DNA from: Microbacterium halophytorum
Lineage (GTDB): Bacteria > Actinomycetota > Actinomycetes > Actinomycetales > Microbacteriaceae
Length of the DNA: 64,000 nt
Reading direction: 5' to 3'
Assembly: GCF_002970975.1 (NCBI RefSeq)
Contig: NZ_PNFA01000006.1
Span: 62,001-126,000 of the forward strand
In this document: positions 7,901-51,625 of the stretch, piece after piece
Position numbering within the stretch: position 1 is the first letter of the stretch
How the letters are laid out: every line of letters starts with the position of its first letter
Position numbers and translations under genes: made by a program
Notes under the pieces: generated by a model
What the model was told of the DNA's origin: nothing
The model's input: the letters and a program-made list of their open reading frames with translations, nothing else
Database searches by the model: none

Positions 7901-7950
7901 TTGGCACGCGGCTCCGGATCGCGTACAGTGGTGCTCGGAAAGCGTTTACC
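7901..7950 (+). promoter_or_regulatory. Promoter with LacI-type operator for the 7974 operon
   Basis: TTGGCA (7901-7906) and TACAGT (7924-7929) are separated by 17 bases. GGAAAGCGTTTACC (7937-7950), a LacI-family half-palindrome pair centred on CG, covers the expected transcription start. The regulator gene at 11264 at the end of this operon is the first candidate to bind it. Confidence 0.7.
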
Positions 7951-11216: not shown

Positions 11217-11250
11217 CCCGTCGAATCCCCGGCATCCGGAGGGCCTTCGA

Positions 11251-11263
11251 TACGATGAGACGC
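11251..11263 (+). promoter_or_regulatory. -10 box of a probable leaderless promoter
   Basis: TACGAT at 11251-11256 stands seven bases before the ATG at 11264. The same spacing of TANNNT to start codon is seen before the M24-like, methyltransferase and ftsY genes of this window. No clear -35 box was found. An alternative start at 11255 with GGAGGG upstream cannot be excluded. Confidence 0.45.
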
Positions 11264-30612: not shown

Positions 30613-30636
30613 GGAAAGCGCTTGCTCGGCTAGACT
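30613..30636 (+). promoter_or_regulatory. LacI-type operator and -10 box for the 30703 gene
   Basis: GGAAAGCGCTTGCT (30613-30626) directly precedes TAGACT (30631-30636), so a bound repressor would occupy the core promoter. No good -35 box was found. The operator is identical to those upstream of the binding protein gene at 39271 and the PL11 gene at 40646, linking this gene to the rhamnogalacturonan regulon. Confidence 0.65.
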
Positions 30637-36499: not shown

Positions 36500-37789
36500 T
36501 CAGTTCAGCGCCGCGTCCATCTCGCCGAAGAACTGCTCGACGGCCTCGTCGACGGTCATCGTGCCGAAGCCGAGCTCCTTGCCCAGCTCGAGGAACTTCT
36601 GCTCGAGCGAGCCGTAGCCGACGATCGGCACGGGCGGGGCCGAGCCCAGGCGGTCGGCGATCGACGCCTCATAGTCCTTGATCTGCGTGCTGAGTTCGTC
36701 GAGCTCCGCCGCCTCGAGCGCGACCGTCGACGCAGGGAGGCCGCGGTTCGTGCCGAAGACCTCGCCCGACTCCTCCGAGTTGATCAGGAAGTCGACCAGC
36801 ATCGCCGATGCCTCGGGGTGCTCCGTGCCCTCGGCGACGGCGTGCAGCATCGAGGGCTTGAGGTAGAGGTCCTTCGCGTCCTCCTCGAAGTACGGCGGGG
36901 CCTGCAGGCTGAGCTCGGTGTAGTCCTCGCCGAGGTTGCCGAGGTACCCGGCGCCGAAGTTGTCCCACGTGCCCTCGCTCATCACGAAGGCGGCGTCGAA
37001 GCCGCTCAGCGGTGCGATCTCCTCGAGGTTCTTCGCGGGGAAGCCGTAGTCGGCGCGCGCCTCCTCGCCCATCGCCCAGAACGTGCGCAGGTCGTCCTCG
37101 GTGAACTGCGGCTCGCCATCCTCGGAGAACAGGTCGGTGCCCTGCGAGCGCATGTACAGCTCGAAGAGCTGGATGCGCCCCGACCAGTCGGTCGCGCCCC
37201 ATGCGTCGACGCCGTTGGCCTGCGCGGTCTCGGTCGCCTCCTTCATCCAGGCGTTGTAGTCCTCGAACGACCCGCCGGCGAAGTCCTCGACGCCCGCGTC
37301 GGCGAGCAGCTTCGTGTTCCCGAACAGGCCCCACGCGTTCGTCGAGGTGGTGATGCCGTAGTTGCCGCCGGCGACCTCGCCGATCGCCAGGATGTCGTCG
37401 GAGAGCGATTCGTCACTGATCTCTTCGCCGATGTACGGCGTGAGGTCGAGCAGCAGGCCGTTCTCGGCGTACTGGCGCAGGAACGAGTAGTCGAACTGCA
37501 TCACGTCGGGCAGACCGCCGCCGGCGGCCTCGGTCTGGCGCTTCTCCCAGTACGCGGGGAAGTCGAGGAACGACGAATTGATCGTGATGTTCGGGTGCTC
37601 CTCGGTGAACAGGTCGAACATCTGCTGGTACAGGTCAGCGCGCTGGTCGTTGCCCCAGAGCGAGAAGTTCAGGGTGATCTCCTCGTCGGGGTCGTAGCCG
37701 TCGCTCCCGCCGCCGGAGCAGCCCGCGAGTGCGAGGCCGGCGATCGCGGTTCCCGCGACGGCCGAGAGGAGTCTTGTCGTGCGAAGCAT
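36500..37789 (-). CDS. Extracellular sugar-binding lipoprotein (family 1), importer-linked copy
   Basis: A 429-residue binding protein with lipoprotein signal LALAGC (Cys24). Its ligand domain (EITLNFSLWGNDQRADLYQQ, DFPAYWEKRQTEAAGGGLPD) and C-terminus (GYGSLEQKFLELGKELGFGT) are closely shared with the product of 37963-39240, so the two arose by duplication. Directly upstream of the permease pair, it is the main binding component of that importer. Its promoter at 37850-37896 carries two LacI-type operators. The ligand is inferred to be a rhamnogalacturonan oligosaccharide. Confidence 0.88.
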   Translation of the reverse strand: MLRTTRLLSAVAGTAIAGLALAGCSGGGSDGYDPDEEITLNFSLWGNDQRADLYQQMFDLFTEEHPNITINSSFLDFPAYWEKRQTEAAGGGLPDVMQFDYSFLRQYAENGLLLDLTPYIGEEISDESLSDDILAIGEVAGGNYGITTSTNAWGLFGNTKLLADAGVEDFAGGSFEDYNAWMKEATETAQANGVDAWGATDWSGRIQLFELYMRSQGTDLFSEDGEPQFTEDDLRTFWAMGEEARADYGFPAKNLEEIAPLSGFDAAFVMSEGTWDNFGAGYLGNLGEDYTELSLQAPPYFEEDAKDLYLKPSMLHAVAEGTEHPEASAMLVDFLINSEESGEVFGTNRGLPASTVALEAAELDELSTQIKDYEASIADRLGSAPPVPIVGYGSLEQKFLELGKELGFGTMTVDEAVEQFFGEMDAALN

Positions 37790-37849
37790 CGTTGCTCGTC
37801 CTTTCAGAACATCATTGTTCGGTCACGAAGCTGAGTTCGGGCCAGCGCT

Positions 37850-37896
37850 GGAAAGCGCTTGCCAAGATTCTAGTGGAAGCTCAAAACGTTTTACAA
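37850..37896 (-). promoter_or_regulatory. Promoter with paired LacI-type operators (box A and box B)
   Basis: Read on the minus strand, TTGTAA (complement of 37891-37896), an 18-base spacer and TAGAAT (complement of 37867-37872) form the promoter. Box B, GTAAAACGTTTTG (37882-37894), covers the -35 box and spacer. Box A, GGAAAGCGCTTGCC in plus orientation (37850-37863), covers the start site. The centres are 31 bases apart. An extra palindrome CCAGCGCTGG lies at 37842-37851. Confidence 0.8.
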
Positions 37897-37925
37897 GTCT
37901 CGAGGGCGTAACGATCGCCCGGAGG

Positions 37926-37958
37926 GGTGCGGCGGCGGCGCCGTGCCGCCGCCGCACC
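37926..37958 (-). terminator. Terminator hairpin of the second binding protein gene
   Basis: GGTGCGGCGGCGGC (37926-37939) pairs perfectly with GCCGCCGCCGCACC (37945-37958). It lies just after the stop at 37963 of the minus-strand gene and upstream of the promoter at 37850. Confidence 0.65.
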
Positions 37959-37962
37959 GGGG

Positions 37963-39240
37963 TCAGCTGCCGAGGATGACGTCGGCCTCGCTGAAGAACT
38001 GCTCGACGGCCTCGTCCACGGTGACGGTGCCGAGCCCCAGCTCCTTGCCGAGGTCCCAGAACTTCTGCTCGAGCGAGCCGTAGCCGGCGACGGGGACGGG
38101 CGGTGCGTCGCCGATGCGGTCCTCGACCGACTCGAGGAAGTCGGCGACCTGCTGGTCGGGGCCCTCGAGGGTCGCGCCCTCGAGCTTCGTGTCGGATGCG
38201 GGGAAGCCGACCGAGGTGCCGAAGATCTCCCCGGCCTCGGGGCTGTTCACGACGTAGTCGAGGAAGATCGCGGCGGCCTCGGGGTGCTCGCTCGACTCGG
38301 AGACGGCCATCTGCAGGCCCGCCTGGCGGTACAGGTCCTGGGCGCCCTCGACGTCGAGCGGCGGCGCGACCACCGAGATGCTCGATGCGCCGGAGTCGCC
38401 GAGGTAGGAGGCGATGAAGTTGCTCCAGCTCGCCTCGCTGGCCGTGAGGTTGCCGCCGAAGCCCGAGACGGGGGTGATCTCCTCGAGCGCCTGCTGCGGC
38501 ACCGTGACGCCGTCGCGGTCGGCCGCCCCGCTCTCCCAGAACGCGGCGAGCTGCTCCTCGGTGAACCCGAGCTCACCGTCCTCCGTGTAGAGGTTGCCGC
38601 CCTCGGCGCGCAGGACGTTCTCGAAGTTCTGGATGCGCTGCGTGTAGTCGGTGCCGCCGTAGATCTCGCCGCCGGTGGCCTCGGTGACGTCGGCCATCCA
38701 TTCCGAGTACTCGGCGTAGGTCGTGCCGCCGGCGTAGGGCTCGATGCCGTGCTCGGCGAGGATGTCGTCGTTGAGGAACACCGACCAGGTGCTGTAGCCG
38801 ATCGGCAGCGAGTACTGCGTGCCCTCGAGGGCGCCGGTGCCGAGCAGGCCCTCGTCGATCGCGTCGGTCGACACGTACTCGCTGAGCTCGCCGAGGTCGG
38901 CGAGCAGGCCGTTCTCGGCGTACTGGCGCAGGTAGGTGTCGGAGAACTGCCACACGTCGGGGAGGCCGCCGCCGGCCGCCTCGGTCTGCCGCTTCTCCCA
39001 GTACGCGGGGAAGTCGGTGAACGAGCCGTTCACCGTGATGTTCGGGTGCTCCTCGTTGAAGGCGTCGATGAGCTGCTGGTAGCGCTGGGCGCGATCGTCG
39101 TTGCCCCACCAGGTGAAGGTGAGCTCGACCTCGGCTTCGGGGTCGTACTCGCCGCCGTCGGACGAGCAGGCGGCGAGTGCGCCGGCCGCGACGCCGAGGA
39201 CGGCGACGGTGGTCAGGGAGCGTCGGAGGGATAGCTTCAT
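37963..39240 (-). CDS. Extracellular sugar-binding lipoprotein (family 1), orphan paralogue
   Basis: A 425-residue binding protein with lipoprotein signal (AALAAC) and a ligand domain parallel to that of 36500-37789 (LTFTWWGNDDRAQRYQQLID, DFPAYWEKRQTEAAGGGLPD, GYGSLEQKFWDLGKELGLGT). The start at 39240 was chosen because the basic signal peptide MKLSLRRSL begins there and AGAAGAGA precedes it; an upstream in-frame ATG at 39294 overlaps the operator. It has its own terminator and promoter and no permease of its own, so it probably feeds the same permease pair with a different ligand. Confidence 0.85.
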   Translation of the reverse strand: MKLSLRRSLTTVAVLGVAAGALAACSSDGGEYDPEAEVELTFTWWGNDDRAQRYQQLIDAFNEEHPNITVNGSFTDFPAYWEKRQTEAAGGGLPDVWQFSDTYLRQYAENGLLADLGELSEYVSTDAIDEGLLGTGALEGTQYSLPIGYSTWSVFLNDDILAEHGIEPYAGGTTYAEYSEWMADVTEATGGEIYGGTDYTQRIQNFENVLRAEGGNLYTEDGELGFTEEQLAAFWESGAADRDGVTVPQQALEEITPVSGFGGNLTASEASWSNFIASYLGDSGASSISVVAPPLDVEGAQDLYRQAGLQMAVSESSEHPEAAAIFLDYVVNSPEAGEIFGTSVGFPASDTKLEGATLEGPDQQVADFLESVEDRIGDAPPVPVAGYGSLEQKFWDLGKELGLGTVTVDEAVEQFFSEADVILGS

Positions 39241-39270
39241 TGCGGTTCTCTTCTCTGGTGCGAGCTGATA

Positions 39271-39319
39271 GGAAAGCGCTTGCTCGCGACACAATAGAAG
39301 GAATCAAAACGATTCACAA
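39271..39319 (-). promoter_or_regulatory. Promoter with paired LacI-type operators (box A and box B)
   Basis: On the minus strand TTGTGA (complement of 39314-39319), a 17-base spacer and TATTGT (complement of 39291-39296). Box B GTGAATCGTTTTG (39305-39317) lies over the -35 and spacer. Box A GGAAAGCGCTTGCT (39271-39284) lies near the start site. The centres are 33 bases apart, almost as in the promoter at 37850. Confidence 0.8.
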
Positions 39320-39391
39320 CCCCGATGACGGCCGATGGCGCCGTCCGCGACGGCGCCGGGTGCTCGGTGCGCCGGGGGTCGTGCGCCGACG

Positions 39392-39463
39392 CGGTGGGCG
39401 GCGGGAGGGCCGTTCGTGCGCGGTGGGCGGCGGGAGGGCCGTTCGCGCGCGGTAGGGTGGCGG
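39392..39463. repeat. 29-bp tandem repeat, two and a half copies
   Basis: The unit CGGTGGGCGGCGGGAGGGCC (first 20 of 29 bases) repeats at 39392-39420 and 39421-39449 with one mismatch, and a shortened diverged third copy runs to 39463, where the operator before the LacI gene begins. The rest of the 295-bp gap between the divergent genes contains only promoter elements. Confidence 0.7.
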
Positions 39464-39475
39464 AAAGCGATTTCT
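39453..39475 (+). promoter_or_regulatory. Autoregulatory LacI-type operator
   Basis: TAGGGT (39453-39458) is a possible -10 box. GGAAAGCGATTTCT (39462-39475) is a variant of box A at the expected start site of the LacI gene at 39536, which suggests autoregulation. No clear -35 box was found. Confidence 0.5.
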
Positions 39476-39535
39476 CGTGCGCACGACCTGCGCGCCGATC
39501 CGTCATCGTCGACGAAGAGCACGAAGGAGGCGCCC

Positions 39536-40570
39536 ATGCAGGGGGGCACGCTCGAGCCCGCGCGCCGGACCCGGCGCATCGGGATCCGCGACGTCGCCGA
39601 GCACGCCGGCGTGTCGATCGCGACGGTCTCGAACGCGCTGAATCGGCCGCAACGGGTCAGCGACGCGACGCGTACGCGCGTCTCCGCCGCCGTCGAGCAG
39701 CTCGGCTACGCGCCGTCGCCGGCGGCGCGCATGCTGCGCGCGCAGAAGAGCGGGCTGATCGGCATGACGGTCATCAACATCCGGAACCCCTTCTTCGGCG
39801 CGCTGATCTCCGGCGCCGAGCAGGCGGCGGCCGCCCGGTCGATGCGCGTGTTCTCCGGCAACGTGTCCGACAGCGCGCAGACGGAGAAGGACCACCTCGG
39901 CCTGTTCCGCTCCGTCCATGTCGAGGGCGCGCTCATCACGCCGTTCGGTGACACGTCGTCCGCGATCCGGAGCCTCCGCTCCCACGGAATCCCCGTCGTG
40001 CTCGTCGACGGCGCGGACGAGACCGGCACCCTCTCGTCCGTGTCGTTCGACAACCGCACGGCGGCCGACATGGTGGCCCGCCACCTGCTCGAGACCGGGC
40101 GGCGCAGGGTGCTGTTCCTCGGCTCGCGCCGCGAACTCGCCCAGGTGCGCGATCGCGAGGACGGGGCGCGCGAGGTGCTGGCCGCGGCCGGCTCGACCAT
40201 GGCGGCCGAGCGCCTGCACCGGACGGACCCGGAGGCGGGGCTCGAGTACGGCGCGAAGCTCGCCGCGGGGGCCGCCGGCGACCTGCCCGACGCGATCATC
40301 TGCTCGAACGACCATCTCGCGGCCGGCCTCGTGCGGGCGCTCGTCGACGGGGGTGTGCGCGTGCCGGAGGACGTCGCCGTCGTGGGCTACGACGACACGC
40401 CCCTGTCGCGCGTCGCCGCCGTGCCGCTCACGTCGATCCGGCAGCCGGCGGTGGACATGGGGCGGCGAGCGGCGGAGCTCCTGCTGGGTGCGATCGGCCG
40501 TTCGCCGGAGCCCCGGCAGAACGTCGTCTACGCCCCGGAACTCGTCATCCGCGCGTCGACCGTCGGCTGA
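39536..40570 (+). CDS. LacI-family regulator, probable rhamnogalacturonan regulon repressor
   Basis: A 344-residue protein with helix-turn-helix GIRDVAEHAGVSIATVSNAL, a canonical hinge APSPAARMLRA (leucine present), and ligand domain from LIGMTVINIRNPFFGALI to YDDTPLSRVAAVPLTSIRQP. AAGGAGG lies five bases before the ATG at 39536. The gene is placed between the importer genes and the PL11 lyase and is surrounded by AGCGCT-type operators, so it is the best candidate to control them. Which protein binds the second operator type (AACGTT) is not resolved. Confidence 0.88.
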   Translation: MQGGTLEPARRTRRIGIRDVAEHAGVSIATVSNALNRPQRVSDATRTRVSAAVEQLGYAPSPAARMLRAQKSGLIGMTVINIRNPFFGALISGAEQAAAARSMRVFSGNVSDSAQTEKDHLGLFRSVHVEGALITPFGDTSSAIRSLRSHGIPVVLVDGADETGTLSSVSFDNRTAADMVARHLLETGRRRVLFLGSRRELAQVRDREDGAREVLAAAGSTMAAERLHRTDPEAGLEYGAKLAAGAAGDLPDAIICSNDHLAAGLVRALVDGGVRVPEDVAVVGYDDTPLSRVAAVPLTSIRQPAVDMGRRAAELLLGAIGRSPEPRQNVVYAPELVIRASTVG

Positions 40571-40600
40571 CGGCTGCCCCTGGCGTCCACGCCACCGGGG

Positions 40601-40660
40601 TTGAAACGTTCGGACCCGACGCGCTAACGTGACACCGTCGGTGCGGGAAAGCGCTTGCTA
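40601..40660 (+). promoter_or_regulatory. Promoter with paired LacI-type operators before the PL11 gene
   Basis: TTGAAA (40601-40606), an 18-base spacer and TAACGT (40625-40630). Box B, TTGAAACGTTCGG, overlaps the -35 box. Box A, GGAAAGCGCTTGCT (40646-40659), lies about 15 bases past the -10 box. The centres are 45 bases apart, wider than in the other three paired promoters. Confidence 0.75.
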
Positions 40661-40708
40661 CATCCGGGTGGGCGAAGGTGCGCGGCGACGTGACGAAGAG
40701 GAGATTCG

Positions 40709-43216
40709 ATGGAGAACTCGGCATTCATCCGGCCCAGGGCGCTGCGCATCGGCGCGTGCGCTGCCGCGGCCGCGCTCGCCCTGACCCTGCCAGTGGTCGC
40801 CGCATCGGCGGCGCCCGCATCGGGCGCACGGGAGCACGTGCCGGCGCAGCTCGAGCAGGACCTGGGGCGCGGCCTCGCGGCCGCGACGACCGACGACGGC
40901 GTGTTCGTCAGCTGGCGCCTGCTGGGCGGCGAGACGACCGGCGCCTCCGGCACGGGGATGACGGGCGCGGACTTCGCCCTGTACCGCGACGGCGAGCGCA
41001 TCGCCACCGTAACCGACAGCACGAACTATCAGGACGCCGAGGGCTCGGCGGATTCGCGGTACCAGGTCGCCCCGATCGTCAACGGCGTCGAGCTGGAGCG
41101 CAGCGACGTGGTCGCTCCGTGGGGCGGTCAGTACGGGTCGATCCCGCTGCAGAAGCCCGAGGGTGGACGCACGCCGGCCGGCGTCCTGCACCCGGAGGGC
41201 GAGGAGTACACGTACGCGGCGAACGACATGTCGGTCGCCGATGTCGACGGCGACGGCGAGTACGAGTACGTCGTCAAGTGGTACCCGTCGAACGCGAAGG
41301 ACGTCTCGCAGCGCGGGTACACGGGGAGCACCATCCTCGACACGTACGAGGCCGACGGCACGCTGCTGCACCGCATCGACCTGGGCAGGAACATCCGATC
41401 GGGCGCGCACTACGCGCAGGTGGTCGTCGAGGACTTCGACGGCGACGGCAGTGCGGAGATCATGGTGAAGACGGCGCCGGGAACGACCGTCACGGCCGGC
41501 GGCGAGACGACGCCGATCACACTGCCGCAGCGCGACGTCGACGCCGGCGTCGCGAACGACGACGACTACCGGATGTCGGCCGACGACTATGCGGAGCACC
41601 TCGCCGGGATCTTCGAGGGATGGGCCGAGCGCGATGAGGTCGTCTCCGGCCAGTGGCCCGCGACCATCGAGGCGGCTCTCGGTATCGAGCAGCGCTACGA
41701 CTACCCGCTCAGCGGCGCGGACGCGGCCGAGCTCGCCGACTACTTCATCGACGAGTGGGCGGTTCAGCGCAGCGGCAGGAACCTGCTGCGCGAGTTCGAG
41801 GGCTTCATCCTCACGGGCCCGGAATACCTCACGGTGTTCGACGGCGACACGGGCGCCGAGCTCGACACGGTCGACTACGAACCGGGCCGCGGCGACGACG
41901 GACTGCTCTGGGGCGACTACGCCATGAGCCGCATCGAGCCGGGCAACCGCGTCGACCGGTTCCTCTCAGGGGCGGCGAACCTCGACGGCGAGTCGGTCTC
42001 GGCCGTCTTCGCGCGCGGCTACTACACGCGCGCCGTCATCGCGGCGTACGACTGGGACGGCGAGCGCCTCTCGATCCGATGGGTCTCCGACAGCGGGCAC
42101 GTGCCGATGACGAACCCGTTCGACGACGGGCCGCACGGCGGCGTCGGCTCCGACCCGGAGCTCGGCGCGCTCGCGGGCCAGGGCTTCCACTCCCTGTCGG
42201 CCGCCGACGTCGACGCCGACGGCGCGCAGGAGATCGTCTACGGCGCCGCCACGGTCGACGACGACGGCTCCCTGCTGTACAGCTCGCACGACGTGCTGCC
42301 CGAGGGGAGCGCCGACCCCGGCGCCACGGCGAAGCTCGGCCACGGGGACGCGATGCACGTCACCGACATCGTTCCCGGGCGCGACGGCCTCGAGATCTTC
42401 ACGGTGCATGAGGGCGGCAGCTACGCGCCGTACGGTTGGGCGCTGCGCGACGCCGCGACGGGCGAGATCATCGACGGCGAGTACTCGGGCCGCGACACGG
42501 GCCGCGGCATGATCGGCGACATCGATCCGGAGCGCGAGGGCCTCGAGTACTGGGCCTCGATGCCTCCCGGTTCCGACCTGGGCACGGCGACCGCGGGCAC
42601 GAACGCGTCGATCCGGTGGGCCGCGGACGGGACGACGCAACTGGTCGCAGGCTACGGCGACGAGAACGTCCGCATCGAGAACGGTGAGGGCGAGACGCTC
42701 TTCACGGCGGAGGGGACCCGCACCAACAACGGCACGAAGGGAAACCCGGGCCTCGTCGCGGACGTGACGGGCGACTGGCGCGAGGAACTGCTCGTCCGCG
42801 ACGCGGACAGCACCGAGATCCGGGTCTACATGTCGACGGACCCGACCGATCGCAAGCTGACGACGCTGATGCACGACCCTCAGTACCGGGTCGAGGTCGC
42901 GCGCCAGAACACGGCGTACAACCAGCCGAGCTACACGAGCTACATGCTCGCGAGCGACACCGACTTCGCCGACGTGCCGGTGCTCACGGAGCCCGTGGCG
43001 GCGCCCGCCCCGGAGTTCGTGGAGCGGCCGGGCCTGGGGCGCGACGGCTACGTCATCCCGGATGCCGATCACGTGACCTATTACGTCGACGGCGAACCGG
43101 TCGAGGCGGGCTTCCACCGGGAGAAGCGGGCGGTCGAGATCACGGCCGTGGCGGACACGTGGTTCCGTACGGACGGCGAGGCGACCTGGTCGCATACGTT
43201 CCGCACGGGTCGCTGA
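40709..43216 (+). CDS. Secreted rhamnogalacturonan lyase, PL11 family
   Basis: An 835-residue secreted lyase that should cut the rhamnose-galacturonate backbone of rhamnogalacturonan I by beta-elimination. The signal peptide ends near residue 33 (VVAASAAPAS). The catalytic eight-bladed propeller follows the YesW/YesX pattern: EQDLGRGLAAATTDDGVFVSWRLLG near 49-73, NDMSVADVDGDGEYEYVVKW, GRNIRSGAHYAQVVVEDFDG, and repeated Asp-rich calcium sites (DVDGDG, DFDGDG, DVDADG). The late segments TNNGTKGNPGLVADVTGDWR and YNQPSYTSYML match the PL11 end. A tail of about 85 residues follows (EFVERPGLGRDGY). A paralogous PL11 domain lies in the fusion at 46799-51481. Confidence 0.9.
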   Translation: MENSAFIRPRALRIGACAAAAALALTLPVVAASAAPASGAREHVPAQLEQDLGRGLAAATTDDGVFVSWRLLGGETTGASGTGMTGADFALYRDGERIATVTDSTNYQDAEGSADSRYQVAPIVNGVELERSDVVAPWGGQYGSIPLQKPEGGRTPAGVLHPEGEEYTYAANDMSVADVDGDGEYEYVVKWYPSNAKDVSQRGYTGSTILDTYEADGTLLHRIDLGRNIRSGAHYAQVVVEDFDGDGSAEIMVKTAPGTTVTAGGETTPITLPQRDVDAGVANDDDYRMSADDYAEHLAGIFEGWAERDEVVSGQWPATIEAALGIEQRYDYPLSGADAAELADYFIDEWAVQRSGRNLLREFEGFILTGPEYLTVFDGDTGAELDTVDYEPGRGDDGLLWGDYAMSRIEPGNRVDRFLSGAANLDGESVSAVFARGYYTRAVIAAYDWDGERLSIRWVSDSGHVPMTNPFDDGPHGGVGSDPELGALAGQGFHSLSAADVDADGAQEIVYGAATVDDDGSLLYSSHDVLPEGSADPGATAKLGHGDAMHVTDIVPGRDGLEIFTVHEGGSYAPYGWALRDAATGEIIDGEYSGRDTGRGMIGDIDPEREGLEYWASMPPGSDLGTATAGTNASIRWAADGTTQLVAGYGDENVRIENGEGETLFTAEGTRTNNGTKGNPGLVADVTGDWREELLVRDADSTEIRVYMSTDPTDRKLTTLMHDPQYRVEVARQNTAYNQPSYTSYMLASDTDFADVPVLTEPVAAPAPEFVERPGLGRDGYVIPDADHVTYYVDGEPVEAGFHREKRAVEITAVADTWFRTDGEATWSHTFRTGR

Positions 43217-43218
43217 CG

Positions 43219-43263
43219 CGGAACGGGAGGCCGCGCCCCGCTGGAGCGCGGCCTCCCGTTCCG
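43219..43263 (+). terminator. Terminator of the PL11 gene
   Basis: CGGAACGGGAGGCCGCGC (43219-43236) is perfectly complementary to 43246-43263 with a nine-base loop, three bases after the stop. A -10-like TACGCT follows at 43264. Confidence 0.75.
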
Positions 43264-43315
43264 TACGCTGGACCCATTCCCGCAGGCGCGGATCTCGCAG
43301 GAGGAAGCCACCGCC

Positions 43316-43450
43316 ACGACGCACGAGCCGAAGCGCCGCCGCGTCGCCGTCATCGGCGCGGGACAGAACCAGAGCGACGACCCGCGCGAAGCGACAACGA
43401 GCGGCGGCAGGGTGCCGCGGCCGCATCAGAACCAGGAGACAGGCGCATGA
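43316..43450 (+). pseudogene. Remnant of a Gfo/Idh/MocA gene (start-less, body deleted)
   Basis: After GCAGGAGG (43298-43305), where a start codon would be expected, the frame reads TTHEPKRRRVAVIGAGQN, which is the N-terminal Rossmann beginning of a Gfo/Idh/MocA enzyme, but no ATG or GTG is present. After about 18 codons the similarity stops. The frame then continues to a TGA that overlaps the next ATG by ATGA, the usual coupling seen between such genes here. This fits an internal deletion of a dehydrogenase gene that left both ends. A chance resemblance is possible because the matching piece is short. Confidence 0.45.
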
Positions 43451-44364
43451 CCGGATTGAGGATGACCCACGAGATCGGCCGCGAGATCGCGGTGCGGGAC
43501 GGCGAGGTCGAGCTGTTCCGCTACGTGTACGCGCCCGACGATCCGCAGCTCGAGTCGCCCCGCCCGTACGTGCACCCGCTGCGGACCCGTGCCGGCAACG
43601 ACGTCAGCCTGTACCGGCCGCACGACCACGTCTGGCACAAGGGTCTGTCGTGGTCGCTGCCGGTCGTGAACGATCAGAACTTCTGGGGCGGGCCGACGTA
43701 CATCCGGGGCGAGGGGTATGTGCAGCTGCCGAACAACGGCACGCAGGCGCACCGCGCGTTCACCGAGCTGACCCAGGACGACGACGGCGTCGCGATCGAG
43801 CACGAGCTCGACTGGACGACGCAGGCCGGCGGGGCGTACATGGCCGAGGTCAGGCGGATCGAGGCGCACCTCAGCGACGCCGGATCGTGGGTGATGACGT
43901 TCGCGACGACCCTCGAGAACGTCTCGGGAGGCCCGATCGCGCTCGGCTCCCCGACCACGAAGGGCCGCGAGAACGCCGGCTACGGCGGCCTGTTCTGGCG
44001 CGGCCTGCGCTCGTTCACGGACGGAACCCTCGTCACCGCCGCCGGCACCGGCTCCGGCGGCGACGTGCGCGGCCAGCGGCACGAGTGGATGGCCTTCGAG
44101 GGCAGGCAGGACGCAACCGACGCGACGAGCCTCGTGCTGATGCTCGACGATGCGGCGAACCCCCACCACCCGCCCCAGTGGTTCGCGCGCTCGGAGGAGT
44201 ACGCGGCGCTGAACCCCGCCCCCTTCTTCAGCGAGGAGGTCGTGATCCGCGCGGGGGAGAGCGCGGCGTTCCGGTACGGAGTGGGCATCGCCGACGCCGA
44301 CGCCGGAGGCGCGCAGGACCTGCTCGGCTCGGTCAGGCGCGTGCTCGCGGGCGCGGGGTCGTGA
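43447..44364 (+). CDS. DUF6807 (PmoA-like) family protein
   Basis: A 305-residue cytoplasmic protein of the same family as 19235-20044, with clearer family blocks: YRPHDHVWHKGLSWSLPVVN (about 58-77), NFWGGPTYIRGEGY, and ENAGYGGLFWRGLRSF. AGGAG lies about nine bases before the ATG at 43447. It starts in overlap with the stop of the dehydrogenase remnant and is followed by GH29 after 55 bases. Family members accompany dehydrogenases in plant-polysaccharide loci; the reaction is unknown. Confidence 0.8.
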   Translation: MTGLRMTHEIGREIAVRDGEVELFRYVYAPDDPQLESPRPYVHPLRTRAGNDVSLYRPHDHVWHKGLSWSLPVVNDQNFWGGPTYIRGEGYVQLPNNGTQAHRAFTELTQDDDGVAIEHELDWTTQAGGAYMAEVRRIEAHLSDAGSWVMTFATTLENVSGGPIALGSPTTKGRENAGYGGLFWRGLRSFTDGTLVTAAGTGSGGDVRGQRHEWMAFEGRQDATDATSLVLMLDDAANPHHPPQWFARSEEYAALNPAPFFSEEVVIRAGESAAFRYGVGIADADAGGAQDLLGSVRRVLAGAGS

Positions 44365-44419
44365 CGACCCGCCCCGGCGGCGCGCCGGTGTCGTCCTCCG
44401 CAGCACGGAGCGCTCTATC

Positions 44420-45634
44420 ATGAGCGGGGCCGCGACCCGCCCCCTCCCGGAATGGGCGCGTGAGGCGTCGCTCGGCATCTTCGTCCACTGGGGCCCGTAC
44501 TCCGTGCCGGCGTGGGCGGAGTCGCCCGGCGCGTGGGGCGCGGTCGACCCCGACACCTGGTTCGCGCACAACGGCTACGCCGAGTGGTACGCGAACACGA
44601 TCCGCATCGAGGGTTCGCCCGCAGCGCAGCACCAGGCCGATGCGCACGGCGGCCGGCCGTACGACGCGTTCGTCGACGCGTGGCGAGCCGAGGAGTACGA
44701 CCCGGTCGACTGGGCGCGACTGTTCCGCGACCTCGGCGCCGACTACGTCGTCCCCGTGGCGAAGCACCACGACGGCATCGCGCTCTGGGACGCACCGGGC
44801 GCCGAGGAGCGGAGCACCGCGCACCGGGGCCCGAGGGGCGATCTGATCGCGCCTCTCGCCGACGCGGTGCGGGCGGAGGGGATGCGCTTCGGCGTGTACT
44901 ACTCGGGAGGCCTGGACTGGGCGCACTCCGCGTTCCCGCCCATCACCTCGATGGAGGACGTCGAGCGCTGGCGACCTGTCGACGCGGACTACGCCCGGTA
45001 CGCGACAGCCCACGTCCGCGACCTCGTCGACCGGTATCGGCCGTCGGTGATCTGGAACGACATCGACTGGCCGGATGCGGGCAAGGCCGACGGGTCGCTC
45101 GACGCGCTCATCCGGCACTACCGCGCCGTCGTTCCCGACGGCATCGTGAACGACCGGTGGGGCGGTGCCGCTGCGGACTACCGAACGAGCGAGTACGCGC
45201 ACGACGCGCAGAACGAATCGGGCGTCGGCTGGGAGCACAACCGCGGCCTGGGTTTCTCGTTCGGCTACAACGCCGAGGAGGACCCGGCGCATGCGCTGTC
45301 GCCGCGCGGGCTCGCACGGCTGTACGCCGACGTCGTCTCGCGCGGTGGGCGCCTGCTGCTCAACGTCGGCCCGGACGCCGCCGGGCGCATCCCCGCTTGT
45401 CAGCGCCGCACGCTCGAAGGCGCCGCCGCCTGGCTGCGCGCCGTCAAGCCCTGGACGGCATCACGGCGATCGTTCACAGAGGCCGAAGCGGCGCAGCTCC
45501 CGGATGCCGGATGGTCGTGCGGATGGATGAGCCGCGGCCGGCCGGTCGTCGTCGCGGAAGCCGAGCCGACCGCGGTCCGGATCGACGGCGTCCCGGCGAC
45601 CGTCTTCGTCCTGCCCGCCGACGACGCGGCATGA
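44420..45634 (+). CDS. GH29-type alpha-L-fucosidase
   Basis: A 404-residue cytoplasmic glycosidase. GH29 blocks are LGIFVHWGPYSVPAW (18-32), EYDPVDWARLFRDLGADYVV, AKHHDGIALWDA, and SVIWNDIDWP with the nucleophile Asp214. LLLNVGPDAAGRIP marks the end of the barrel; a short C-terminal domain follows. It lacks a signal peptide, so it would act on imported oligosaccharides bearing terminal fucose or a related residue, which occur as side groups of rhamnogalacturonan or xyloglucan. The ATG at 44420 lies within the same plus-strand run as DUF6807 and the esterase. Confidence 0.85.
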   Translation: MSGAATRPLPEWAREASLGIFVHWGPYSVPAWAESPGAWGAVDPDTWFAHNGYAEWYANTIRIEGSPAAQHQADAHGGRPYDAFVDAWRAEEYDPVDWARLFRDLGADYVVPVAKHHDGIALWDAPGAEERSTAHRGPRGDLIAPLADAVRAEGMRFGVYYSGGLDWAHSAFPPITSMEDVERWRPVDADYARYATAHVRDLVDRYRPSVIWNDIDWPDAGKADGSLDALIRHYRAVVPDGIVNDRWGGAAADYRTSEYAHDAQNESGVGWEHNRGLGFSFGYNAEEDPAHALSPRGLARLYADVVSRGGRLLLNVGPDAAGRIPACQRRTLEGAAAWLRAVKPWTASRRSFTEAEAAQLPDAGWSCGWMSRGRPVVVAEAEPTAVRIDGVPATVFVLPADDAA

Positions 45635-45762
45635 TCCGGTAGCGTCGGACCTGTTCCGCGACCGCGCGCCGGTGGGGCGGTGCCCCGTTCTCGGAAGGAC
45701 CGGGCGACGTCCGCACCCCGGCCGCCCGGCGCGACGCCCGCACCGCAGCGACGAGGAGCGCG

Positions 45763-46635
45763 ATGACCGATACACCCGCGGCAGCGACGGGAGAACCCCG
45801 CCGACCGACCGTCACCACCGCCGACCGCGTCGTCGCCGGCCGCACGCTGCGCATTTACGCACCCGAGCGCCCGAGCGGCGCCGGGCTCGTCTGGCTCCAC
45901 GGCGGCGGGTTCTCGCGCGGCGACATCGACATGCCGGAAGCCGACTGGGTCGCGCGCGAGCTGGCGGCTCGCGGCATCGCGGTGGCATCGCTCGACTACC
46001 GCCTCGCCGCCGTCGCGGGCGAAGCGGCCTTCGGCACGATGCAGGGCCGCCACTACCCGGCCGCGTCGGACGACGCGCTCGCCGCGTGGGAGTGGGCGAT
46101 GGCGCACGCCGATGAGCTCGGCGTCGACCCGGCTCGCGTGGGCTTCGGCGGCGCGAGCGCCGGCGCGAACATCGCCGTGGGCGCGACGCTGCGGATGCTC
46201 GCCGACGGCCGGCGGACCCCGGGGCTGATGGTGCTGGCGTACCCGACGCTGCTCGCGGAGCAGCCGGCACCGGCCGCGGAGCTGCGCGCGAAGCTCGAGG
46301 CGGACCCGGTCGCCGATCGCTTCGGGCCCGAGGTCGTGCTCGCCATGTACGAGAACTACCTCGGCGGAACGGTCGCCGGCGCACCCTCCGCGGCGATCCC
46401 CGGGCTGGCGTCGGCGGAGGAGCTGGCGGGCTTCCCGCCGACCGTCATGGTCAACAGCGACGCCGACGAGCTGCGCGTCTCGGGGGAGGCGTTCGCCGAC
46501 CAGCTCCGTGCCGCAGGCATCGAGGTCGCGGCCGCGACGGAGCCGGGCACCACGCACGGCCACCTCAACCGCCCGAACGAGGGCACGGCCGCCCGCGACA
46601 CGATCGACCGCTTCGCGAGCGCGCTGCTGCGCTGA
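45763..46635 (+). CDS. Alpha/beta hydrolase, hormone-sensitive-lipase-type esterase
   Basis: A 290-residue cytoplasmic esterase. The oxyanion motif HGGGF (46-50) and nucleophile Ser132 in GGASAGANIA are clear. Asp in NSDADELR and His in THGHLN complete the triad. The ATG at 45763 follows GACGAGGAG. It lies 128 bases after the GH29 gene; TAGCGT at 45640 could be a -10 box of its own promoter. In this context deacetylation of imported pectic oligosaccharides is plausible but not shown. Confidence 0.83.
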   Translation: MTDTPAAATGEPRRPTVTTADRVVAGRTLRIYAPERPSGAGLVWLHGGGFSRGDIDMPEADWVARELAARGIAVASLDYRLAAVAGEAAFGTMQGRHYPAASDDALAAWEWAMAHADELGVDPARVGFGGASAGANIAVGATLRMLADGRRTPGLMVLAYPTLLAEQPAPAAELRAKLEADPVADRFGPEVVLAMYENYLGGTVAGAPSAAIPGLASAEELAGFPPTVMVNSDADELRVSGEAFADQLRAAGIEVAAATEPGTTHGHLNRPNEGTAARDTIDRFASALLR

Positions 46636-46691
46636 TCCGGGTCGCCCGAGGCATTCGGGCGGCCCGTCCGCGGGCGGGCTCGGGGTTCCCC

Positions 46692-46735
46692 GATCCGGCC
46701 GAGCGCGACGGCGTGCGGCCGCGCTCGGCCGGATC
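46692..46735. terminator. Bidirectional terminator between convergent genes
   Basis: A 16-bp perfect stem, GATCCGGCCGAGCGCG (46692-46707) with 46720-46735, and a 12-base loop. Confidence 0.7.
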
Positions 46736-46757
46736 GGACCGCCGAGGCGCACACGAC

Positions 46758-46790
46758 GGGGCGGGAACGGCCGCGCGCCGCTCCCGCCCC
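46758..46790. terminator. Second hairpin between convergent genes
   Basis: GGGGCGGGA (46758-46766) pairs with TCCCGCCCC (46782-46790). It is nine bases from the stop of the minus-strand fusion gene and is probably its terminator. Confidence 0.6.
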
Positions 46791-46798
46791 GCGTGCGA

Positions 46799-49700
46799 TC
46801 ACGCCTGGCCGGCCGCCTCGTAGGGGGCCGTGACCCTCGTGATGGTCCCGTCGGCATCCGTCGCGGTCAGAGCCACCTCGCCCGCGGCGATCTCCTCGGC
46901 ACGTGTGTGGAACGTCACGGACTTCGTCGCACCAGCCGCCAGGTGCTTCAGCGCCTTGTCCCCATACGCCGATCCGATCTCGACCGAGACGGGCTCATCC
47001 GAATCGTTCGTCACGCTCACGACGAGCACCTGCCGGCCGCCGACGGTCCGCGTGTCCGCCTCACCGCTCACGGGCGAGGCGTGCACCGGCTCGAGCGCCG
47101 GCGCCTCGGTCGTGTACCGGATGTGCGGCGCGGCAGGCGCCTCCATGCCCTCGCCCAGGAAGTAGCTGGTGTGCGGGGGCTGGTTGTACGCGGACACCTG
47201 CGTCGCGACGGCCGCCCGGTAGACCGGATCGGACATCAGCGTGCGCAGCCGGTGCTCGGTCTCGTCGACCGTCGTGAAGATCCGCAGCGCGGACGAATCG
47301 GCCGTGCGATACACGAGCTCCTCGCGCCAATCGCCGAGGAAGTCGGCCTGCAGGGCCGGGTTCCCCTTGGTCGAGTTGTTCGTCAGCACGCCCTCGGGCG
47401 CGAACACCGTGGTCTCCTTCGCGTTCTCGTAGTCCCAGTCGGACACCGTCGGCGAGCCGGCGCCGGTCTCGGCGTCGTACTCGTGGTCGACGATCTCGCT
47501 GAGCAGGTCGCCATCCCACTGCGCGACGAAGTTCGCCGCGGGGATCGACTCCGAGATCAGCTCGCCGGACGCGCTCTTCAGCGTTCCGACGGGGGAGTTC
47601 CACGCGGCATCTCCGCCGACGGCCCACCCCTCGGCGCCGTCGTGCCGAGGGTCGATGTCGGCCATGGCGGCTCGGCCTGTGTCGCGCTCAGCGGGGATGT
47701 CCCACAGGACGTCTCCCGTGGCCGCGTCGCGGAACGTCGCGCCCCTGTTGCCCGAGCTGCCCATGTCCTCGTGCGCCGCGAACACCTCGAGACCGGGGCG
47801 CGAGGGGTCGAAGTCGCTCACGTGCAGCGCGTCGCCGTGGCCGAGGCCGGTGGAGTACAGACCCGTGCCGTCGTCATCGATCGCGGCCGAGCCGTAGATG
47901 ATCTCGTCCTTGCCGTCGTCGTCGACGTCGGCGACGTTCATGTTGTGGTTGCCCTGACCGTAGTAGTCGCCGTTGCCGGGAGCCGACGAGTCGAAGGTCC
48001 AGCGCTCCGAGAGGCTCTCACCATCGAAGTCGAACGCCGCGACGACCGCGCGCGTGTAGTAGCCGCGGCTGAACACGACGCTCGGGTGCTCTCCGTCGAG
48101 GTGGGCCACCGACGCCAGGAAGCGGTCGACGCGGTTCCCGTAGCCGTCGCCCCAGGAGGCGACGTCGCCGCGCGCCGGAACGTAGTCGATCGTGTCGACC
48201 GCCGCTCCCGTCGCGCCGTCGAAGGCCGTCAGGAACTCCGGGCCCTGCAGCACGTAGCCCGACGAGTTGCGGTGGTCGGCGTCGGCGTCGCCGATCACGG
48301 TGCCGGTGCCGTCGACCGTGCCGTCGGCCGTCTTCACGAACAGCTCCGCGCTGCCGTCGCTGTTCAGGTCGGCGACCATCGGCTGCGTGTAGTGCGCGCC
48401 TGCCCGGATGTTCCGACCCAGGTCGATGCGCCACAGGTTCTCGCCCGTCAGCTCATAGGCGTCGAGGTAGACGTTGCCCGTGTAGCCGGACTGCGAGTTG
48501 TCCTTCGCGTTCGTCGGGTTCCAGAGCAGCACGATCTCGTACTGCCCGTCGCCGTCCAGATCGCCGATCGTCGCGTCGTTCGCCGTGTACTCGTACGGCT
48601 GCCCGTCCTTCGTGTACCCGCCCTCCGGCTTGTCGAGCGGCACGTCGAGGTGCTGCTCCGCCCACGGCGAGAACTCCTCGGTCGACCAGTGCTCGACGCC
48701 GTCGCTCACCTGCGCGATGCGGTAGCTCGCCTCGGCCGTGCCCTCGGCGTCGGTGTAGTTGGTGCTGCCCGTGATCGGCTCATCCGTGATGCGCTCGCCG
48801 TCGCGGTAGACGTGGAACGCAATGTCCTCAGGGTCGTCGCCGTTCATGCGCCACCCGATGTAGGTGCCGTCGCCCTGGGCGACGGCGACCGGCTGGCGGC
48901 CGATGCGCTCCGCGTCGCGGTCGAGCACCGTGCCGCCGTCGACCTCGAGGGCCGCCGATGCGTCACCGGTTCCGCCCGCGTTGACGGCCTGCACGCGGTA
49001 GAAGTACGGCACCGTCGTCAGGACGTCCTCGTCGACGAAGGCGGCCTCGTCGGTGCGTCCGATGACGGCGAAGTCGCCGTCGGCGGCCTCCGCGCGGCTG
49101 ACGAGGTAGAACAGAGCGTCATCCGATGCGTCCCAGCTCAGCGCGACGCTGCGCGCCTCGACCGCATCGGCGGCCAGGCCCGTCGGCGCCGCCGGCACCG
49201 CGACATCCGGATCGAACACGTCGACGTCGACGGCCACGGAGGCGACCGATTCGTCGTCGCCCGTGACCGCGGTCACGTCGTACGAGTAGGTCGAACCGGC
49301 CGCCGCCGTCGCGTCGATGGCGCGGAGCTCCTGGGTCTCGGCGACGAGCTCGCGCTCACCGCCGGCGGAGCTGCGGTAGACGCGGTACGAATCGGCCTCG
49401 GCGGCCTCGTCCCACGCCAGCGCGACCGATCCCGTCGCGCCGTCGACGTCCACGGACTCGACCGCGAGGCCCTGCGGCGCCACGAGGATCGGCGTGATCT
49501 CGAGCGCGTTCAGATGACCGGTCTGCCCGCTCACGGTCAGGTCGAGCCGACCGTCCTCGACGACGATGCCGTCGAACGCCTTCTCCGTTGCACCCCTGCT
49601 GACCGACATCCCGCCGTAGTCCTGGCCCTCGAACGCGATGTTCGAGCGCACCGTGCCGAGCGTGTCGCCGACCGTGACGGTCGCGGCGTACTCGCCGTTG

Positions 49701-51481
49701 GGCAGCTCGGTCGCGAACTCGTATTCGCCGCCGAAGTACGCCACGAAGTCGCGGGCGGCGGCGTCGAGGGAGTCGCCGCGGTCGCGGTCGATCATGCCCA
49801 TGGGGTCGACGATGCCGAAGCCGCGCTCGGCGCTGTAGACGGTTTCGCGCGTGACCTCGTCGAATCCGTCGGCGACGACCGAGCCGACGGGGCCGAAGTC
49901 GTAGCGGTACTTCGCGGTGCGCGTGCCGGCGACGACCGTCTCGCTGGGCTCGCCCTCGCCGAGGCCGTTCGCGGCCGCGACGCGGAACTCGTACGAGGTG
50001 CCCTCATCGAGGCCGGACACGGAGGCCTGCGGGATCGTCGACGTCGTCGCGAGTGCGAAATCGATCGTGCCTGCCGGCGCGCGGTAGACGCGGTAGATGT
50101 CGGCACCCGGCGTCTCGTCCCAGCGCAGCGCGACCGATGAACCCGTCGTGCTGTCGAGCGTGAGGCCCGTCGGTGCCGCGGGCACGGCATCCGGCGTCGT
50201 CACCTCGACGGCGTCTGAGATCGGCAGGCCGAGCTCCGCGACGTCGAGCGCGATCAGCCGCGCCATCTGGATCGCGCCGTACTCCTGGAAGTGCGTGTCG
50301 TCCTGCGTGCCGTCCGGGCGGTTCGGGTACACGCCCGCCGGCACGTGCAGGAACACCGACTTCGCGTTCTCCACGCCGATCTCATCGAGGTACGCGCGGC
50401 TCGATGCGGAGAGGTCGACCAGGTCGACCTCGAGTTCGGTCGCGACGTCCTTCATCGCCTGCACGTACTCGGGGAAGCTCTCGTTGAAGGCGCCCGTCTC
50501 GGTGTTCACGTCGAGGCGGTTGACGGGGGTGACGAGCACGGGGGTGCCGCCGCGCTGGCGCGTGCCCTCGACGTAGATCTTCAGGTAGTCGCGGAAGTCC
50601 TCGGGGCTCGTGTAGCGCTCGGGAACGGACGCCGTCGCGTCGTTGTGCCCGAACTGCGTGAAGACGTAGTCGCCCGGCTTCACCGAGCGCAGCACGTCGT
50701 CGAGCCGCCCCTGCTCCACGAACGAGCGCGAGCTGCGGCCGCCGATGGCGTGGTTGTCGACGGCGACGTCGTCGCTCAGGAAGCGGTCGAGCATCTGGCC
50801 CCAGCCGGCCTGCGGAACCCAGTACGGGTCGTAGGTCTGCACGGTCGAGTCGCCCGTGAGGTAGGCGGTCGGAACGGCGCCGGCCTCGTCTGCGGGGTGA
50901 GCCGTGATCTCGATCGCGGCGATGTTCGGGGTCTCGCCGCCGAACGCGAACGACAGCTGCCCGTCGACGAGCGCGATGTCGTAGTCCATCTCGAGGAACT
51001 CGCCCGTCGCCTTCTGCGTGGGCTGCACCTTCTGCATGAACTCGGTCGTGATCGAGATGTCGGTCGCGCCACCGGTGTCTCCGGCGATGAGCGACACGGT
51101 GTAGTCGAGGTTGTCGAGGTCGACGGCGAACGTCGCGCCCGCGGCCGTGACGAAGTCGCCGCGCAGCGCGTCGTCGCCGCCCCTGTCAGTGCCGGTGACG
51201 CCGGCCGGGTCGATGAAGCCGAAGCCCCGCTCCGGCGTGTACGCCGTCTCGGCGGTGACGGCCTGGTAGCCCTCCGCCGCAGCTCCGGGGCCGAAGTCGA
51301 ATCGGACGGGCTCCGGTACCTCCTGCATCGTCGTATCGCGCTCCGCCGCCGTGGCGGCGCCGCTCGCGCAGACGATGCCCGAGACGGTCATGGCCGCGGC
51401 GAGCGCCGCCCCTGTGACGCGCAGCGTTCGGCGTGGGGAGCCTGTGCCCCCTCGCCGCGCGCGTCGGAATGCCGTTTCCAT
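46799..51481 (-). CDS. Secreted CE12 rhamnogalacturonan acetylesterase - PL11 lyase fusion
   Basis: A 1560-residue secreted protein that joins deacetylation and cleavage of rhamnogalacturonan. Order: signal peptide (1-46); a beta-sandwich module (about 58-195, VRFDFGPG); an SGNH esterase of family CE12 (about 203-415) with Ser212 in LTGDSTVQ, Asn280 in GHND, and Asp395/His397 in DDTHF; a fibronectin III domain; a second copy of the sandwich module (YRYDFGPVGS); two more fibronectin III domains; a PL11 propeller from about residue 855 (ERIGRQPVAVAQGDG, DLDGDGQYEIVLLWNP, LGRNIRAGAHYTQP, TNNSTKGNPALQADF); and a C-terminal beta domain of about 100 residues. The start at 51481 has AGAGAGGA upstream; an ATG at 51574 would lie in the operator region. 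Confidence 0.88.
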   Translation of the reverse strand: METAFRRARRGGTGSPRRTLRVTGAALAAAMTVSGIVCASGAATAAERDTTMQEVPEPVRFDFGPGAAAEGYQAVTAETAYTPERGFGFIDPAGVTGTDRGGDDALRGDFVTAAGATFAVDLDNLDYTVSLIAGDTGGATDISITTEFMQKVQPTQKATGEFLEMDYDIALVDGQLSFAFGGETPNIAAIEITAHPADEAGAVPTAYLTGDSTVQTYDPYWVPQAGWGQMLDRFLSDDVAVDNHAIGGRSSRSFVEQGRLDDVLRSVKPGDYVFTQFGHNDATASVPERYTSPEDFRDYLKIYVEGTRQRGGTPVLVTPVNRLDVNTETGAFNESFPEYVQAMKDVATELEVDLVDLSASSRAYLDEIGVENAKSVFLHVPAGVYPNRPDGTQDDTHFQEYGAIQMARLIALDVAELGLPISDAVEVTTPDAVPAAPTGLTLDSTTGSSVALRWDETPGADIYRVYRAPAGTIDFALATTSTIPQASVSGLDEGTSYEFRVAAANGLGEGEPSETVVAGTRTAKYRYDFGPVGSVVADGFDEVTRETVYSAERGFGIVDPMGMIDRDRGDSLDAAARDFVAYFGGEYEFATELPNGEYAATVTVGDTLGTVRSNIAFEGQDYGGMSVSRGATEKAFDGIVVEDGRLDLTVSGQTGHLNALEITPILVAPQGLAVESVDVDGATGSVALAWDEAAEADSYRVYRSSAGGERELVAETQELRAIDATAAAGSTYSYDVTAVTGDDESVASVAVDVDVFDPDVAVPAAPTGLAADAVEARSVALSWDASDDALFYLVSRAEAADGDFAVIGRTDEAAFVDEDVLTTVPYFYRVQAVNAGGTGDASAALEVDGGTVLDRDAERIGRQPVAVAQGDGTYIGWRMNGDDPEDIAFHVYRDGERITDEPITGSTNYTDAEGTAEASYRIAQVSDGVEHWSTEEFSPWAEQHLDVPLDKPEGGYTKDGQPYEYTANDATIGDLDGDGQYEIVLLWNPTNAKDNSQSGYTGNVYLDAYELTGENLWRIDLGRNIRAGAHYTQPMVADLNSDGSAELFVKTADGTVDGTGTVIGDADADHRNSSGYVLQGPEFLTAFDGATGAAVDTIDYVPARGDVASWGDGYGNRVDRFLASVAHLDGEHPSVVFSRGYYTRAVVAAFDFDGESLSERWTFDSSAPGNGDYYGQGNHNMNVADVDDDGKDEIIYGSAAIDDDGTGLYSTGLGHGDALHVSDFDPSRPGLEVFAAHEDMGSSGNRGATFRDAATGDVLWDIPAERDTGRAAMADIDPRHDGAEGWAVGGDAAWNSPVGTLKSASGELISESIPAANFVAQWDGDLLSEIVDHEYDAETGAGSPTVSDWDYENAKETTVFAPEGVLTNNSTKGNPALQADFLGDWREELVYRTADSSALRIFTTVDETEHRLRTLMSDPVYRAAVATQVSAYNQPPHTSYFLGEGMEAPAAPHIRYTTEAPALEPVHASPVSGEADTRTVGGRQVLVVSVTNDSDEPVSVEIGSAYGDKALKHLAAGATKSVTFHTRAEEIAAGEVALTATDADGTITRVTAPYEAAGQA

Positions 51482-51579
51482 TCGATCCTCTCTGATCCGA
51501 TTCGCTGGCGGCGTCTTCGCCGCAGCGGCGCCCGCGAGGGCTCGCGCAGGCAGCCGGTCCATCCGGGCGAACACAGCTG

Positions 51580-51625
51580 AGAAAGCGCTATCCCGAAGTT
51601 AGTGAACCGTTTTACGCGGCGTCAA
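51580..51625 (-). promoter_or_regulatory. Promoter with paired LacI-type operators for the CE12-PL11 fusion
   Basis: On the minus strand TTGACG (complement of 51620-51625), an 18-base spacer and TAACTT (complement of 51596-51601). Box B GTAAAACGGTTCAC (51603-51616) fills the spacer. Box A, GAGAAAGCGCTATC in plus orientation (51580-51593), covers the start site. The centres are 22 bases apart. In the 308-bp gap to smc the other notable element is TAGGCT at 51743, a possible -10 box for smc. Confidence 0.78.

Follow-up and report, generated by a model that had tools for sequence, protein, structure and literature searches.

What regulatory logic is implied when the promoters of one rhamnogalacturonan module each carry two palindromes of different sequence, and do the two belong to one regulator or to two? 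This question is raised by a 64,000-nucleotide stretch of the Microbacterium halophytorum genome (NCBI RefSeq assembly GCF_002970975.1, contig NZ_PNFA01000006.1), hereafter the window, which spans C4:62001-126000 (contig C4) of a 3.33-Mb genome. The module encodes two ATP-binding cassette (ABC) binding proteins, a permease, a GH42 beta-galactosidase, a PL11 lyase, an alpha-L-fucosidase, an alpha/beta hydrolase, a GDSL esterase-PL11 fusion and a LacI-family regulator. We denote sites of the first motif A, sites of the second motif B, the first binding-protein gene SBP1, the LacI gene at 39536 LacI-A and another LacI gene of the window, at about 11285-12277, LacI-T. Our results show that A and B are two distinct site classes and that their pairing is not due to chance. 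We consider it probable that the pair forms a double-repressor gate, with a RhaR-type LacI protein on B and a different one, most likely LacI-T, on A.

Paired palindromes in the module promoters

The preliminary description of this DNA placed both palindromes in four promoters, with centre spacings of 31, 33, 45 and 22 bases, and direct reading of the sequence bears this out for every promoter:

37846-37900, minus strand: SBP1 promoter; B at 37882-37893 (core 37883-37892, AAAACGTTTT) over the -35 box and spacer, -10 box TAGAAT, A at 37851-37862 (GAAAGCGCTTGC) at the start region; centre spacing 31
39268-39322, minus strand: promoter of the second binding-protein gene, SBP2; B at 39306-39316 (AAAACGATTCA, minus-strand reading TGAATCGTTTTG), A at 39272-39283 (GAAAGCGCTTGC); centre spacing 33
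40600-40660, plus strand: PL11 promoter (gene 40709-43216); degenerate B at 40602-40613 (TGAAACGTTCGG, matching at one half only), A at 40647-40658 (GAAAGCGCTTGC); centre spacing 45
51579-51625, minus strand: promoter of the esterase-PL11 fusion gene; B at 51603-51614 (core 51603-51613, AAAACGGTTCA on the minus strand), A at 51581-51592 (GAAAGCGCTATC); centre spacing 22

The genes predicted to be regulated from these promoters are:

36500-37789, minus strand: SBP1, ABC binding protein
37963-39240, minus strand: SBP2, ABC binding protein
40709-43216, plus strand: rhamnogalacturonan lyase family 11 (PL11)
46799-51574, minus strand: GDSL esterase (named CE12 in the preliminary description) fused to rhamnogalacturonan lyase family 11

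The resemblance to LacI operators noted at the outset also holds, both A and B being CG-centred palindromes with a AANCGNTT-like core. The layout of the SBP2 promoter is the same at three loci from relatives (L190, L191 and L192), and the ortholog promoter of the fusion gene in L392 carries both sites, A at 8618 and B at 8641. The accompanying statement that -35 and -10 boxes fit every time stands only in part: the boxes are weak, but their frame is conserved across SBP1 promoters. Because a sigma-70 consensus scan (9 of 12 positions) passes just one of the four window promoters (37896-37867), our promoter claims rest on conservation.

Pairing across the genome and the genus

Exact matches to the motifs are few in the genome of M. 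halophytorum: GAAAGCGCTWNC is found at 6 places, GAAAGCGCTTKC at 5 and AAAACGNTTNA at 4. All four exact B places (AAAACGNTTNA) lie within 22-46 bp of an A site, namely three module promoters and C4:178199, where B pairs with an A site at C4:178245, 46 bp away centre to centre, ahead of an MFS transporter gene. Because it lies outside the window, this last pair is an independent test of the pairing, and the ortholog of the transporter in the genome G457 (85% identical) is again preceded by an A-B pair. Among the six exact A places, five have a B-type partner (the degenerate one at PL11 included), and the one at 30614 has none. Scattering without pairing, which had been put forward as grounds to reject the two-operator design, is thus absent for exact B sites and present for one-mismatch matches of both motifs, which are dispersed through the genome, many of them unpaired. 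A spread of A over many unrelated operons, like that of CcpA and its catabolite-responsive elements (cre), was not seen among the six exact A sites in 3.33 Mb, five of which are in the module and one at the MFS gene.

Orthologs of SBP1 (E <= 1e-100) were detected in 125 of the 366 genomes of the genus, and those of LacI-A (E <= 1e-90) in 53. We scored 62 loci with half-site rules derived from the rhaI and LacI-T operators and not from the promoters in question; the SBP1 counts use 56 of these loci, with L193, L196, L202, L203, L204 and L207 excluded for having no match to SBP1. An A-B pair 15-60 bp apart is present in 54/56 SBP1 promoters, compared to 31 of 11200 block-of-two shuffles, and with A fixed, a B-type site occurs 30-32 bp upstream in 53/56. 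Furthermore, relative to the centre of A, the aligned promoters have TTG at -41 to -39 in all 56 cases and TAnnnT at -17 or -16 in 53. B therefore overlaps the -35 box and the spacer, and A overlaps the start region. Across six genomes with LacI-A orthologs, B lies within 70 bp at 11 of the 33 A places, with 49 B places in all; uniform scatter would yield about 0.01 pairs, a value to be taken as a guide only, since the genomes share ancestry and operators tend to lie in intergenic DNA.

Two classes of half-sites

The half-sites were compared in the 54 of 56 promoters where a rule that disregards positions -6, -5 and -2 could pick the sites, giving 108 halves per class. Under this blind rule, G occupies position -6 in 108/108 A halves and 3/108 B halves. 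At position -2, G is found in 96/108 A halves and 1/108 B halves, and A or T in 107/108 B halves. Earlier counts, made with rules that scored the compared positions, gave the same result. In much of the LacI family, position -6 is read by residue 20 of the helix-turn-helix. Because the halves differ at both -6 and -2, it is unlikely that one protein reads A and B alike. The preliminary description had left the choice between one regulator with two site types and two LacI regulators; of these options, the second is by far the better fit, given the difference at -6 and a plausible owner for each class.

Candidate regulator of B

An exact TGAAWCGWTTCA occurs at only two places in the genome of M. 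halophytorum. One is ahead of rhaI, which encodes L-rhamnose isomerase (TIGR02635 above cutoff), and has a LacI gene as neighbour; the other is flanked by a LacI gene on one side and, on the opposite side, by an ABC transporter operon that includes RhaS (TIGR02637 above cutoff). Two more places match with one mismatch. The first is in front of a rhamnosidase-like gene that matches NCBIfam models only below cutoff, and the second falls where the coding sequence of a seemingly unrelated gene begins (L159). In 22/22 rhaI loci from 21 genomes, an exact TGAAACGATTCA lies within 550 bp upstream, and all 21 genomes encode a homolog of the regulator that we call RhaR (our own and 20/20 others, 62-66% identical). 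The protein is a putative counterpart of the published RhaR. The B half-sites agree with the rhaI operator halves (TGAAAC, TGAATC), which makes a RhaR-type protein a candidate reader of B. Our first view, that B is purely a RhaR site, was dropped: the symmetric AAACGTTT found in most species keeps other members of the RhaR clade possible.

LacI-A belongs to that clade. In a tree of 23 of the 27 LacI proteins of the genome (four were unparsed; LacI-A of the genome G164 is not included), it groups with RhaR with support 100/99. Its recognition helix is TVSN, with Asn rather than Arg at helix position 20.

Candidate regulator of A

The clustering of A sites around 39536 had suggested that A is the operator of LacI-A, a notion that we rejected as a first view. 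A is retained in 38/38 fetched genomes that have no LacI-A match at E <= 1e-90; these are part of approximately 73 genomes with SBP1 and no LacI-A match, as obtained by subtraction of lists. In five of the genomes without a LacI-A match, 27 of 32 A-type places (at most one mismatch) are within about 60 kb of SBP1 and five are elsewhere. Taking this persistence of A together with the A-type site in front of the LacI-T operon, the role at A that the preliminary description implied for the 39536 product, a TVSN-type paralog of the rhamnose regulator, becomes doubtful. The same source counted a single LacI gene in the module, which is narrowly true; the window holds a second one, LacI-T, in an operon with its own A-type site. 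The relevant features are:

7937-7950: A-type site GGAAAGCGTTTACC in the promoter of the LacI-T operon, directly after a -10-like TACAGT (7924-7929)
7974-9143, plus strand: GFO/IDH family oxidoreductase, gene 1 of the LacI-T operon
9145-10350, plus strand: DUF993 protein, LacI-T operon
10311-11216, plus strand: xylose-isomerase-like TIM barrel protein, LacI-T operon
10913-12277, plus strand: open reading frame of LacI-T, helix-turn-helix GVSLATASRVLNGSTRKV; predicted owner of the A sites
39463-39474: A-type site GAAAGCGATTTC in the LacI-A promoter; the closest B, at 39306, belongs to the divergent gene
39536-40570, plus strand: LacI-A, paralog of the rhamnose regulator with a TVSN-type helix; its half-sites are predicted to be of B type, not A type

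LacI homology within the LacI-T reading frame begins near 11285, and the true start is probably just before this position. An A-type site precedes the LacI-T operon in 8/8 genomes compared (a count that omits one row, a truncated copy of the window gene) and also in G164, G477 and G722. The recognition helix of LacI-T, LATASR, has Arg at position 20, in line with the G at -6 in every A half; among LacI-family proteins of the TVSR group, Arg at this position accompanies G at -6 (PMC2978694). LacI-T is therefore most likely a better owner of A than LacI-A, as judged from the helix and the site in front of its operon. A more general recognition code could not be drawn from the LacI genes of this genome, where the palindromes were too noisy: the helix was parsed at 16 of 27 loci and a palindrome found at 4 of those.

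The LacI-T operon may encode a sugar pathway tied to rhamnogalacturonan use. In some relatives, the operon is followed by a gene whose product starts MxIVVALDSFKGS and resembles glycerate kinase.

A probable double-repressor gate and its alternatives

The model that we favour, as the more probable reading though not a firm one, is a gate with AND logic. B, over the -35 box and spacer, would be bound by a LacI repressor of the RhaR type, such as accompanies L-rhamnose genes, and A, at the transcription start, most likely by LacI-T. RNA polymerase would be blocked while either repressor is bound, so that the uptake and lyase genes would open only when both are released. The release signals would be rhamnose or a relative at B and a further sugar or breakdown intermediate sensed by LacI-T at A. 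Repression rather than activation is suggested by the position of B at -35 and of A at the start, by analogy with bifidobacterial regulons, where sites overlapping such promoter positions are read as repression (PMC5928203).

Several observations weigh against this model. The standard pair is missing from three of the 56 SBP1 promoters: L318 is without B, and in L339 and L349 the distance between A and the B-type site is 66 and 55 bp, respectively. On the B side, the distance from the RhaR homolog to rhaI is less than 2 kb in 14 of 21 genomes but 9-12 kb in the other 7; moreover, the rhaI operators are invariably AAACGATT, unlike B, for which symmetric AAACGTTT forms are the most frequent, so that B may belong to another member of the RhaR clade, LacI-A included. 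On the A side, the published rule for Arg at position 20 is stretched here because LacI-T is of the TASR and not the TVSR type, and the genome G651 has the A-type site but no LacI-T that a pattern search could find. The LacI-A promoters hold A-type sites in 7/14 loci (L193-L206), which would also fit LacI-A as the owner of A. Finally, another LacI protein with Arg at position 20 (LacI-S) is encoded within 8 kb of SBP1 in 7/40 loci, with an A-like site before its gene in 2, so that A may have other owners in some species; a LacI-S-type helix was not seen among the LacI genes of the M. halophytorum genome.

The alternatives differ mostly in the place that they give to LacI-A. That it acts as the local module repressor on A, with RhaR on B, is the arrangement usual for local LacI regulators, and LacI-A does sit among A sites, with an A-type site in its own promoter here and GAAAGCGCMTAC in the 7 of 14 loci with diverged orthologs mentioned above; yet the persistence of A in all 38 genomes without a LacI-A match, together with Asn at position 20 and the grouping with regulators of presumed TGAANC half-sites, makes this unlikely. 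We give more weight, although still well short of favouring it, to LacI-A taking B where it is present, replacing or competing with its paralog RhaR. Its place within the RhaR clade and the two B-type sites between LacI-A and the divergent lyase gene in L196, L203 and L204 are consistent with such a role, but B is found also where LacI-A is undetected, and in M. halophytorum the B nearest to LacI-A is about 220 bp away and part of the promoter of the divergent binding-protein gene. A tentative extension by paralogy combines this possibility with the double gate in a three-repressor circuit, with LacI-T on A, RhaR on B and, in some species, a duplicated RhaR (LacI-A) that came to reside in the rhamnogalacturonan module, is itself under LacI-T control via the A-type site of its promoter and competes for B as an added RhaR-like regulator. 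If true, the same promoters would respond to three signals, namely rhamnose, a rhamnogalacturonan oligomer and a downstream intermediate.

Readings that dispense with a second regulator appear very improbable. A single repressor could use A as a strong and B as a weak operator, given that both are CG-centred LacI-type palindromes, that position -2 may be either A or G for regulators of the CcpA type, and that the site at 39463 combines one AAGC half with one AATC half. Against this stand the consistent differences between the halves at -6 and -2, the lack of any AAGCGCTT core among the sites found beside the rhaI B-type sites, and the promoter at 30614, which has A without B. No more credible is the view that B is no operator at all but a T/A run around the -35 box selected for promoter strength: B does overlap the -35 hexamer, and its position is set by the promoter, but it is palindromic beyond the hexamer, its halves resemble the rhaI operator, and at the PL11 and MFS promoters the B-A distance is 45-46 bp, not about 31.

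Relation to known systems

A LacI-type RhaR of Actinomycetales has been predicted to co-regulate genes for rhamnose and rhamnose oligosaccharides through a palindromic operator (Rodionova et al. 2013, PMC3870299). The present system is similar in that L-rhamnose genes have a putative LacI-type regulator and a palindromic operator, and differs in that the rhamnogalacturonan promoters add a second, different LacI operator to what, in the part of that study available, is control by RhaR alone. The same source names dedicated rhamnogalacturonan regulators, RhgR in Bacillales and RhiR in Rhizobiales and Erwinia, in bacteria that also have a rhamnose regulator. The present design would be comparable, except that there the specialised regulator replaces control by the rhamnose regulator, whereas here both site types share promoters. 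Another parallel is the overlap of the AraQ and AbfR regulons in bifidobacteria, where some arabino-oligosaccharide operons are predicted to carry sites of both (PMC5928203). Plant-oligosaccharide genes are preceded by sites for two regulators with predicted joint action in either case, but the sugars and regulators are different, and the accessible portion of that work names two species, in contrast to the fixed geometry at one promoter in more than 50 genomes described here.

Overlapping LacI regulons are known already; what is new is this pairing and its likely regulators, that is, the fixed geometry, the two separable half-site codes, the wide conservation and a likely owner of A other than the module's own LacI. 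Within one library of open papers, a full-text search for rhamnogalacturonan, Microbacterium and LacI together returned nothing, and wider searches found no description of the A-B pairing in titles or abstract openings. The promoters are a clear natural example of two LacI-type operators, with half-site codes that can be told apart, combined at one promoter. Many species share the design, and regulator duplication (LacI-A, RhaR and LacI-V, a further RhaR-type protein described below) can be traced in it together with operator retention. They also caution against pairing a LacI gene with the nearest palindrome only because the two are neighbours.

Further sites and variants

One more A site of the window belongs, with those at 39463 and 7937-7950, to the sites absent from the preliminary description:

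30614-30625: A site without visible B, ahead of a GFO/IDH oxidoreductase gene (30703-31833)

Some SBP1 promoters are more elaborate. In 9/56 of them (L315, L329, L333, L334, L341, L342, L343, L345 and L347), an extra A-like site is placed beyond B, 54-56 bp upstream of A, as if a second repressor dimer could work across the promoter. In species with a diverged LacI-A (L194, L195, L197-L201, L205 and L206), a further RhaR-like site, TGAATCGTTYWA, precedes B by about 32-34 bp, and the three sites form a regular A-B-B array.

At nine loci (L316, L317, L320-L322, L324, L326, L327 and L330), a RhaR-type LacI gene (LacI-V) is found some 4 kb beyond the SBP1 start, and A has the form GGTAAGCGTTTTCC; three more LacI-V loci (L313, L325 and L344) retain the AAGCGCTT core. 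Co-evolution of the regulator and the A site at these loci is possible.

Upstream of LacI-A, two AAACGTTT sites stand exactly 66 bp apart, double the usual spacing, in L196, L200, L203 and L204; in L196, L203 and L204 the divergent neighbour of LacI-A is the esterase-lyase fusion gene. The palindrome CGAACCGCTTCG is repeated in tandem, in direct orientation and at a spacing of 16 bp, upstream of LacI-A in L194, L197, L199, L201, L202, L205 and L206 and is a putative operator of a further regulator.

With regard to rhamnose genes, the genome G410 has two copies of rhaI, each with an adjoining RhaR homolog and an exact TGAAACGATTCA upstream. Lastly, the divergent promoter of another LacI gene of the M. 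halophytorum genome, C3:99914, contains the palindromes TGAAGCGCTTCA and TGAACCGCTTCA, 22 bp apart (L158:7801-7834).

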